Shown here piece by piece: positions 35,316 to 45,961 of a stretch of 62,229 nt of DNA (position 1 is its first letter; every line of letters starts with the position of its first letter). Below the pieces are notes generated by a model. The model was given only the letters and a program-made list of their open reading frames with translations, did not search any database and had not been told where the DNA came from. Source of the stretch: Flavobacteriales bacterium. Lineage in GTDB: Bacteria > Bacteroidota > Bacteroidia > Flavobacteriales > Schleiferiaceae. The stretch is from positions 1 through 62,229 of the forward strand of contig NSIH01000003.1 of assembly GCA_002737315.1 (NCBI GenBank), written 5' to 3'. Position numbers and translations under genes: made by a program.

Positions 35316-36431
35316 CTAAAGTCCGTCGTCGTTAAAGTCTGCCGACGCCTGCCCGTCTGACATGAGGTAGGCCTTGAGGAAGGCATCGATTTCGCCCTCC
35401 AGGACCGAATCAGGGTCGCTGGTCTCCACCCCAGTGCGCACGTCCTTAACCAATTTATAGGGATGCAGCACGTAGTTGCGTATTTGCGAACCCCACTCAA
35501 TCTTCTTTTTGCCCGCCTCAATAATAGTGCGTTTGGCATTGCGCTCCTCAATAACCTGCTCGTACAGGCGTGATTTGAGCAGCTGAATTGCCTTCTCTTT
35601 GTTTTGAAGCTGCGACCGCGTCTCGGTGTTTTCAATGACAATACCCGAGGGTTTGTGGCGGAGTCGCACTCCAGTCTCGACCTTATTGACGTTCTGGCCG
35701 CCCGCCCCACTGGAGCGAAACGTGTCCCAGTCAATGTCGGCTAGATTTACTTGAATGTCAATGGTATCGTCCACCAGGGGGTAGACATAAACGCTTACAA
35801 AGGACGTATGGCGGCGTGCGTTGGAATCAAAGGGACTGATGCGGACGAGCCGGTGGACTCCGTTCTCCCCCTTGAGGTAGCCAAACACAAACTCGCCTTC
35901 GATTTCGAGGGTAACTGTTTTTACTCCCGCGACCTCGCCTTCTTGAAAGTTCAACTCGCGAACCTTGTGGCCGTTGCGATCGGCCCAGCGCAGGTACATG
36001 CGCATGAGCATTCCAGCCCAATCGCAGGACTCGGTACCGCCTGCTCCCGCCGTTACCTGCAGCACGGCACTCATCTTGTCTTCTTCGCCGCTGAGCATGT
36101 TTCTGAACTCCAGGGTGCTCAACTGCGCCTCAAGTTCAGCAACTGCCGCGTCTACCTCAGACTCTTCAATCACGCCTTCGCGGTAAAACTCTACCGAGGT
36201 CTCGACTTCACCAAACTGCGCTTGAACGGCCTCGTAGCCCGAAATCCAGTACTTGATTTCGCGAATCTTGCGCATGGTCAGTTCGGCCTTCTTGGCATCA
36301 TCCCAAAAATTCGGATTTCCGGTTTTCTCCTCTTCGTTGGCGGCAGTAATCCGCTTTTCTTCGAGGCGCAGGTAGCCTTTTAGGTACTCGATGCGTTGAT
36401 GGTATTCCTTAATTTTTTCGGGCGAAATCAT
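35316..36431 (-). CDS. prfB: Peptide chain release factor 2
   Basis: 371 residues. Recognises UGA/UAA through SPF (VRISPFDS) and triggers peptidyl-tRNA hydrolysis through GGQ (GAGGQNVNK). Read in one uninterrupted frame from ATG 36431: the position where many bacteria have the autoregulatory UGA frameshift (GYL-UGA-D) reads GYLRLEE, CTG CGC CTC GAA, with no stop. It shares a 36-base divergent promoter region with ltaE, and its own TACTTTTG box ends five bases before the ATG. Confidence 0.95.
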
Positions 36432-44003: not shown

Positions 44004-45045
44004 CCACTGCATCCACAAGAATCATCCATGCGCCGACGCCGAGCATGAGGTGAATGGGTTGTAGTCCGCGCGGCAGCTCGAGGTAGTAGAGCAGGGCACC
44101 CACGGTGGCCTGAAGGCAAAAAACCAACAAAACCAAACCAGCTCTGGCACGAAGGCCTGCCATTCCCTCGCTGCGTCGATAGATCCAGTAGGCAAAGCCC
44201 AGCAGAAGGAGGCTGAAGCTGCGATGAATCAGCACGCCGGGCTCGAGCTTCGCCACCCAGCCGAGCCTCGATGCGCCAAAACCCAAGTCGTGAACGAGGG
44301 CATCAACGCCTTCTCGCACGGAGGTTCCCAAGACGGTTTGTGCCAACAATAGAATGGCTAGGGCCGTAAACATGACGATTATATTCTTTAGGTTTTTGGC
44401 TGCCGGAGGCTCCGCCCTCCATAGATTTTGCTCGGCCAAGCTGTGAACGTTGCGAAAGAGTGCCGTGAGCAAAGCAAGAAGGAAGTAAGCGCCCAAAAGA
44501 TGGTAGGTTATGTGGTGCGGAATGAGATTGCCGTCTACCACAACCTTGCCGAGCCAGGCTTCAAATCCCAGGGTAAGCAGGGCCGTGAACATGGTTATGA
44601 ACCAAAGCGGATGGCTCCGTAGAAACTTCAGACTCGCGAAAGTGGCGAGCAGCACGGGAATCCCCAAAAACACTCCAAGCAGGCGGTTGATGAACTCAAT
44701 CCAGGTATGCAGGGGGTTAAAAGCGCTGTAGTCGTGGCGGGTGTACTCCTGCCATAGCGCGTTGGCGAAGACTGATTGAGGGGCATGATCGGCTTGAGCA
44801 ACCCAGAAGGCCTCGCGGTGCAGCACCATCTGGCCTTGACGGTAGGACGCGCTCGACGACCAGGTTACCTGATCGAGGCGAGTAGGTGGCACCGATAGCC
44901 CGAAACACTTGGGCCAGTCCGGGCAACCCATTCCAGACCCCGTCATGCGAACCACTGAGCCCGCAAGCATGACCAGAAGGTTCAATACTATGGCCCAGCG
45001 CAAAAATCGCAGAAGCCATGGTGCGTTAATTAAGGGCGCATTCAT
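43951..45045 (-). CDS. ctaA: Heme A synthase (CtaA/COX15)
   Basis: 364 residues from ATG 45045; the in-frame extension upstream crosses the promoter and was discarded. Converts heme O to heme A for cytochrome aa3-type oxidases. About eight membrane helices and COX15 blocks: VRMTGSGMGCPDWPKCFG, HTWIEFINRLLGV (His), HHITYHLLGAYFL (His), LIHRSFSLLLLG (His), QPIHLMLGVGAWM (His). The four membrane His residues fit the two-heme model. Shares a 31-base divergent region with the EamA gene. It implies heme-A-dependent aerobic respiration. Confidence 0.9.
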   Translation of the reverse strand: MNAPLINAPWLLRFLRWAIVLNLLVMLAGSVVRMTGSGMGCPDWPKCFGLSVPPTRLDQVTWSSSASYRQGQMVLHREAFWVAQADHAPQSVFANALWQEYTRHDYSAFNPLHTWIEFINRLLGVFLGIPVLLATFASLKFLRSHPLWFITMFTALLTLGFEAWLGKVVVDGNLIPHHITYHLLGAYFLLALLTALFRNVHSLAEQNLWRAEPPAAKNLKNIIVMFTALAILLLAQTVLGTSVREGVDALVHDLGFGASRLGWVAKLEPGVLIHRSFSLLLLGFAYWIYRRSEGMAGLRARAGLVLLVFCLQATVGALLYYLELPRGLQPIHLMLGVGAWMILVDAVVKAGLMLRAIQASRDSA

Positions 45046-45050
45046 GGCTG

Positions 45051-45058
45051 TAAAGGTA
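45051..45058 (-). promoter_or_regulatory. Probable -7 box for ctaA
   Basis: Minus-strand TACCTTTA, ending five bases before the ctaA ATG. It is the left half of a 7-3-7 inverted repeat with the EamA box. Confidence 0.5.
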
Positions 45059-45061
45059 GCG

Positions 45062-45069
45062 TACCTTTG
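45062..45069 (+). promoter_or_regulatory. -7 box for the EamA transporter gene
   Basis: TACCTTTG, a perfect TAnnTTTG, ending seven bases before the ATG at 45077; right half of the inverted repeat AAAGGTA-GCG-TACCTTT. Confidence 0.6.
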
Positions 45070-45076
45070 CCGCCTC

Positions 45077-45961
45077 ATGAATCGTTCTGGGGTTGTTTGG
45101 GCCCTTTTTATAGCTCTCGTACTGGTCTGGGGATCGTCTTTTGTGCTGATGAAAATCGCAATCAAAAGCTTTGAACCCCTTCAAATTGGTGCCCTTCGAT
45201 TGCTCTTCGCCGCAGCAACTGTGCTGGTTATTTCGCGCAAGCATTTTAGCGAATTTCGTCGCGCTGACTTCTGGCCGCTGACGGTGGTAGCCTTGATGGG
45301 CAACTCCCTACCCTACCTGCTCTTTCCCTTGGCGGTAGCCAAGGTGCCCTCGGCTCTTGTGGGTGTAGCCAACTCCACAACACCAGTCTTCGCCCTTCTG
45401 TTTGGAGTGCTTGCCTTTGGGCGCAAGCTGCATAAAATCCAAGTTTGGGGCGTACTCGCCGGACTCCTCGGCGCAGTGCTCCTGATAAGTCCCTGGCGCA
45501 CCGTGGTTCCGGGCCAAGAGATTAAATCCTCCTACCTCTTACTGGCCATCCTGGCTTCGGGCTTTTATGGCATCAGCATCAATACGATAGGTTCCAAGCT
45601 GAGTCACCTTAGCCCGCGGGGAATCACCCTCTTTGTAATGCTGATAACCCTGCCAGTGTCGCTAGGAATACTCGGGGCAACGAGGGTATGGACGAACCTT
45701 GGCGCGGACCATTTGCTCCCGGCCCTGGCCTCTCTAGCCTTTTTGGGTATTGTAAGTACGGGAATTGCCACGGTGCTCTTTAACAAGCTAATCGCCCTGA
45801 CCAGTCCATTAACCGCCGCATCAACCACCTACTTTATTCCGGTGGTCGCCTTGGCCTGGGGTCTTGGCATGGGTGAAACCATTTTACCCCACCATATTGG
45901 CGGAATGGCCGCCATAATTTTGGGCGTTTATCTCGTCAACAAGAAGCCAAAAGCCCAATAG
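45077..45961 (+). CDS. EamA-family (DMT) transporter
   Basis: 294 residues from ATG 45077, which directly follows its promoter box; a longer in-frame reading extends back into ctaA and is not used. Ten membrane helices in two EamA repeats (~5-140 and ~150-290), with LVWGSSFVLMKIAIKSF at the start, PSALVGVANSTTPVFALLFG, the repeat LLAILASGFYGISIN and PLTAASTTYFIPVVALAWG. Exports or imports small metabolites (amino acids, nucleotides, sugars vary by member). Substrate unknown. Confidence 0.88.
   Translation: MNRSGVVWALFIALVLVWGSSFVLMKIAIKSFEPLQIGALRLLFAAATVLVISRKHFSEFRRADFWPLTVVALMGNSLPYLLFPLAVAKVPSALVGVANSTTPVFALLFGVLAFGRKLHKIQVWGVLAGLLGAVLLISPWRTVVPGQEIKSSYLLLAILASGFYGISINTIGSKLSHLSPRGITLFVMLITLPVSLGILGATRVWTNLGADHLLPALASLAFLGIVSTGIATVLFNKLIALTSPLTAASTTYFIPVVALAWGLGMGETILPHHIGGMAAIILGVYLVNKKPKAQ

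Follow-up and report, generated by a model that had tools for sequence, protein, structure and literature searches.

The original report on symmetrical promoters is said to have described widespread divergent transcription from them. The bidirectional promoters of E. coli and Salmonella studied by Warman, Grainger and colleagues have, according to the passages available from that work, start pairs 7–25 bp apart, with 18 bp as the commonest distance (PMC10268837). Excerpts of a further study of E. coli indicate that at basal level none of the five bidirectional promoters tested is strong enough for either direction to influence its opposite, and that competition between sterically exclusive promoters can arise once one direction is strongly activated (PMC12825309). 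For Bacteroidota, the consulted parts of three papers describe primary-sigma promoters with a -7 box of the form TAnnTTTG. In F. johnsoniae the -33 motif is weak, transcription begins 4–5 nt downstream of the -7 box, and leaders are longer than 10 nt in 87% of cases and 10 nt or shorter in 13% (PMC6847099); 5.5% leaderless transcripts are given for F. psychrophilum (PMC9723704) and about 3.7% of leaders under 10 nt for B. thetaiotaomicron (PMC7366714). The last two papers do not use the term 'bidirectional', and no description of facing -7 boxes in Bacteroidota was found in the titles, abstract openings and passages retrieved, which came mostly from literature accessible without subscription.

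The element considered here lies between two divergent genes, ctaA and an EamA-family transporter gene, in a window of 62,229 nucleotides (the whole stretch of DNA that was analysed) belonging to a 1.36-Mb draft genome (G000) that is 84% complete; among named CtaA relatives, the nearest are MAGs with the labels Schleiferiaceae and Cryomorphaceae. The two gene starts are separated by 31 bases, and the plus strand at 45051–45069 reads T AAAGGTA GCG TACCTTT G. A sequence-only reading had described the perfect 7-3-7 repeat, the 31-base spacing of the start codons and box-to-ATG distances of 5–7 nt; on re-reading the sequence all of these were recovered, with the boxes ending 5 nt (ctaA) and 7 nt (EamA gene) before the respective ATGs. 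The preferred interpretation, to which a probability of about two in three is given, is that the palindrome consists of two facing, near-leaderless primary-sigma promoters of the Bacteroidota type, and is probably a compact two-way promoter. Each arm would represent the larger part of a -7 box of the type seen most often in this genome, TACCTTTG; when two such boxes face each other, a perfect inverted repeat arises automatically. The polymerase would melt either box and start within 0–3 nt of the ATG, yielding near-leaderless mRNAs. The positions of the genes, boxes and predicted starts are collected in Table 1.

Table 1. Genes, repeat, predicted promoter parts and further 17-mer sites at the loci discussed (window coordinates unless a genome and contig are given)
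Feature	Position	Strand	Description
ctaA	43954..45045	minus	COX15/CtaA, heme A synthase family; 364 aa; Pfam PF02628, E 2.2e-31; ATG 45045
EamA-family transporter gene	45077..45961	plus	294 aa; Pfam PF00892, E 3.8e-34; ATG 45077
Perfect 7-3-7 inverted repeat AAAGGTA-GCG-TACCTTT	45052..45068	no strand	
ctaA -7 box, predicted	45051..45058	minus	TACCTTTA; matches 5/6 fixed consensus bases
EamA gene -7 box, predicted	45062..45069	plus	TACCTTTG; full TAnnTTTG consensus
Gap separating the facing boxes	45059..45061	no strand	3 nt; sequence variable in relatives
ctaA transcription start, predicted	45045..45046	minus	leader 0–1 nt; placed by F. johnsoniae spacing (passages of PMC6847099)
EamA gene transcription start, predicted	45074..45075	plus	leader 2–3 nt; placed by F. 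johnsoniae spacing (passages of PMC6847099)
17-mer at sucC-like/ABC transporter pair	G006:C14:41501, G007:C7:34309, G008:C53:5731		G008 read from flanking letters only

Symmetry by itself is not significant and carries little weight, because the 62-kb window holds four perfect 7-3-7 repeats and 3.8 are expected in equal-base random sequence. The specific repeat sequence, with at most one mismatch, occurs once in the window and 0 times in 100 dinucleotide shuffles. The case for the ctaA/EamA palindrome rests on its position and its conservation, not on its symmetry.

Relatives were found through a CtaA search, in order to avoid selection by the repeat, and 82 of the 88 genomes of the family matched. 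Within the window's own genus (g1) a ctaA match was obtained in 20 of 22 genomes, the contig starting within the gene in G041 and G050; the 21 readable ctaA upstream loci comprise 18 of this genus, the window's own included, and three of a second genus (g5). Both 7-base arms are unchanged in all 21 loci, and the gap, whose sequence is variable, measures 3 nt in 20 of them and 4 nt in G042. On a CtaA tree with a total length of 5.5 substitutions per site, no change is inferred in any of the 14 arm columns, while each gap column has three (G042, with its 4-nt gap, being left out) and 59 of 60 flank columns have between one and eight; the sole unchanged flank column is the base completing the EamA box, which reads TACCTTTG in 21/21 ctaA-anchored loci. 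The ctaA box ends in TTTG in 15 loci and in TTTA in six, namely the window and five relatives. Whether orthologous ctaA/EamA pairs retain the palindrome was the test proposed by the sequence-only reading itself, and the unbroken series of kept arms bears its expectation out. Searched directly, the pattern AAAGGTANNNTACCTTT is found in 20 of the 88 family genomes, with one place each in 17/22 genomes of the window's genus and two each in 3/3 of g5; it is absent from the other 68 family genomes, so that the other 17 genera are without the exact pattern, and its reversed control matched 4/88. Of the 395 genomes of the order, 13 have the 19-base form CAAAGGTANNNTACCTTTG, and every one of them belongs to g1 or g5. 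Among 80 named CtaA loci, the upstream region was examined for 14, and four (L001–L004) have the repeat; these were not added to the counts because their stretch is identical to loci of G055, G051, G058 and G008.

Such conservation could in principle reflect coding, with both genes starting upstream and reading through the palindrome. An upstream in-frame ATG is available to both genes in the window and, with start codons picked mechanically, the EamA frame is open across the repeat in 19/21 loci and the ctaA frame in 9/21. However, G040 and G044 have stops in the repeat in both frames and G042 shifts the reading register, all with unchanged arms, and the third codon positions of the arms are invariant while the middle EamA-frame codon varies freely (Ala, Ile, Glu, Cys). 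On the strength of the stops, the register shift and the invariant third positions, coding constraint was rejected and is regarded as highly improbable. An RNA hairpin or terminator was likewise dismissed on theoretical grounds: neither predicted transcript would include the repeat, as each starts beyond it, and there is no T-run after it. A chance palindrome without joint role, formed by two independent promoters that a short intergenic space brings close together, would agree with the four perfect repeats of the window and with CC being the commonest middle pair of boxes, which makes facing boxes often palindromic; it is nonetheless considered unlikely, as it is at odds with arms kept in 21/21 loci and spacing kept in 20/21 while the flanks and the gap sequence vary.

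The earlier claim that each arm resembles a promoter -7 box was supported by the placement of this box type in the sampled part of the genome. Within 436 kb of the window's own genome, 40 of 185 TAnnTTTG words have an ATG 4–8 nt downstream that opens an ORF of at least 100 aa, as compared with 1/172 for the control word GTTTnnAT, 2/303 for ATnnTTTG, 3/124 for TTnnTATG, 2/137 for TAnnGTTT and 1/66 for TAnnTTGT. The reverse complement of the box gives 7/185, a value compatible with boxes facing each other. The variant TAnnTTTA, which is that of the window's ctaA box, has an ATG-started ORF of at least 100 aa 4–8 nt downstream in 13 of 126 cases of the own-genome sample. The middle pair CC is the commonest among the genome's boxes, both in those 3–9 nt from an ATG (13/41) and in those 10–40 nt away (14/49). 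Near-leaderless starts look frequent in this genome, since the commonest distance from TAnnTTTG to ATG is 4 nt (18 cases for the 185 words of the 436-kb sample); set beside published leader lengths, which derive from mapped starts and are a different measure, this distance is a hint only. A general upstream promoter extension creating the second arm was considered and discarded, as the genome's own near-ATG boxes have neither an AAAGG nor a TA signal at the matching positions; the relatives' table was left out of this check because many of its entries are orthologs of the ctaA/EamA locus itself.

Some features of the site itself speak against facing promoters. While the EamA box matches TAnnTTTG fully, the window's ctaA box has A for the last G, and no -33 motif is seen in either direction. 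The sequence-only reading had placed each -33 element inside the opposite gene; the expected stretches do fall there, but neither contains TTTG, or even TTG. The lack of a -33 element is not decisive, because in F. johnsoniae, too, this motif is much less evident.

Facing boxes are common in this genome. The arrangement CAAANNTA-N(0-30)-TANNTTTG is found 25 times in the window's own genome as against once for the reversed control, and 41 versus 3 times in G006; the final A of its ctaA box keeps the window's ctaA/EamA site from being counted among the 25. These two sets could serve as a ready test set for mutually occluding promoters in the phylum. In a 448-kb sample of the own genome, seven of ten facing pairs (gaps 0–40) have an ATG-started ORF of at least 80 aa within 60 nt on both sides, and the corresponding fractions in the samples of three other genomes are 3/5 for G053, 8/14 for G057 and 5/13 for G006, with reversed controls (gaps 0–40) at 0 in the own sample, 5 in G053, 6 in G057 and 1 in G006. 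For whole genomes and gaps of 0–24, facing pairs versus controls number 20 vs 5 in G053, 24 vs 20 in G057, 27 vs 19 in G059 and 22 vs 15 in G040, and some larger genomes of the family fall below the control (e.g. G014, 12 vs 21). The excess, though clear in the own genome and in G006, is weak or lacking in the G053 sample and in some members of the window's genus (G057, G059, G040), which counts against the preferred interpretation. At short gaps (2–6 nt), counts versus control reach 23 vs 4, 33 vs 10 and 21 vs 5 in family f32, and 17 vs 4 and 13 vs 3 in family f2. Across the phylum, about 60 of 198 genomes (counted by eye) exceed their control, many only slightly, so that the excess is lineage-bound and limited to some families. 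Inspection by eye of the gaps in the own genome and G006, which span 2–30 nt with none at 0–1, revealed no clear optimum.

Each of the three g5 genomes has the exact 17-mer a second time, between a sucC-like gene (with ATP-grasp_2 and Ligase_CoA Pfam domains in G006 and G007) and a divergent gene for an ABC transporter ATPase. The facing boxes of this gene pair are 3 nt apart in G006 and 25 nt apart in the own genome; close spacing therefore need not matter generally, a point in favour of the chance explanation considered above. Two further divergent pairs were observed. At 36431 (minus) and 36468 (plus) of the window, a gene for a peptide chain release factor (PCRF and RF-1 domains) diverges from a beta-eliminating lyase gene, with facing boxes TACTTTTG and TACCTTCG 10 nt apart; judged by eye, relatives have a gap of 8–12 nt, and they retain the release factor's box in a somewhat altered form. 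A near copy, AAAGGTAGCGTACATTT, with a 3-nt gap is located at G000:C3:25018-25034 (L131:5019-5035) between two other divergent genes of the own genome, a 467-aa ORF with no Pfam match and a 257-aa ORF of the metallo-beta-lactamase fold.

The ctaA/EamA arms are more constrained than the other promoter boxes sampled. The middle bases of both boxes are CC in 21/21 genomes and are not fixed in the -7 consensus. Among other genes sampled in G000, G053, G057 and G006, 107 of 213 ortholog comparisons retain a TAnnTTT[GA] box at about the same position, and 46 of the 107 have the same middle two bases; restricted to CC boxes, 28/60 are kept, and CC itself in 17 of these 28. In these four samples a facing partner brings no advantage: 19/38 such boxes are kept, then 7/19 with the same middle, as against 88/175, then 39/88, for the rest. 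Since each direction was counted, these comparisons are not independent; sequence motifs served to exclude ctaA and EamA, and matches below 45% identity or starting beyond residue 12 were dropped. In these samples other -7 boxes, whether or not they have a facing partner, are less well kept than the ctaA/EamA arms, so that so strong a conservation is not explained by facing promoters alone. This surplus asks for a cause, which the sequence-only model leaves unexplained.

Because neither an ordinary promoter nor an ordinary facing pair predicts so strong a constraint, an added regulator site was considered, in which a dimeric regulator would also use the 17-mer as its operator, lying over both -7 boxes and jointly repressing or switching the two genes. 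An operator would account for the never-changing middle bases and for arm columns without any change, and would suit the recurrence of the 17-mer at the sucC-like/ABC transporter pair. Like ctaA, sucC belongs to respiratory metabolism. The sites are however very few (one or two exact places per genome in the 20 genomes having any), the scan of three neighbourhood proteins identified no regulator beside the palindrome, and the spacing of the half-sites is not fixed, G042 having a 4-nt gap between intact arms as the one exception in 21. A change of gap between intact half-sites is unusual for a dimer site, and the G042 locus is therefore better accommodated by two separate boxes than by one rigid dimer site. 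On balance an operator role is doubtful, though the least improbable of the alternatives weighed here. More speculative still is a 7-3-7 core read by RNA polymerase both ways and by a dedicated factor, through which the 17-bp element might balance heme A synthesis against the transporter; were this so, the core in g5 would also balance the sucC-like gene against the ABC transporter.

Returning to two facing promoters as the preferred interpretation, with a distance of only 4 bp between the first bases of the two boxes, a polymerase on one promoter would cover the other and only one polymerase could be accommodated at a time, as we infer from the geometry. The earlier proposal that RNA polymerase could not occupy both promoters at once thus stands as a geometrical argument, while its extension to mutually exclusive expression finds no support in the available parts of the E. 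coli work (PMC12825309). With promoters of modest strength, both genes would be expressed with little mutual effect, and competition would be expected only if one direction were strongly activated. Mutual exclusion would then apply to occupancy and, unless an activator intervenes, would not be expected for expression.

Compared with known systems, the locus shares with primary-sigma promoters of Bacteroidota, as presented in passages of three papers (PMC6847099, PMC9723704, PMC7366714), the same -7 box, middle bases without G, and a -33 element that is weak or unseen, whereas leaders in those organisms are mostly longer than the ones predicted here. With the bidirectional promoters of E. coli and Salmonella, as portrayed in the accessible parts of PMC12825309 and PMC10268837, it has in common a short symmetrical element for divergent transcription, often situated between divergent genes, a poorly conserved upstream -35/-33 element and steric exclusion of polymerases, which at ctaA/EamA is a prediction. 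It differs from them in that its boxes are separate and 3 bp apart instead of overlapping -10 elements that share bases, in that its predicted starts are 28–30 bp apart against 7–25 bp in the definition, and in its TAnnTTTG box and the predicted near-leaderless state of both mRNAs. The locus falls outside the published definition of a bidirectional promoter, because its boxes do not overlap and its start sites are predictions. The asymmetric -7 box of Bacteroidota appears ill-suited to the overlap seen with TATAAT, and the arrangement described here suggests that Bacteroidota can reach two-way promoters by placing two boxes face to face. The ctaA/EamA element would accordingly resemble the E. 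coli bidirectional promoter in the way it works, as a variant without shared bases between the boxes.
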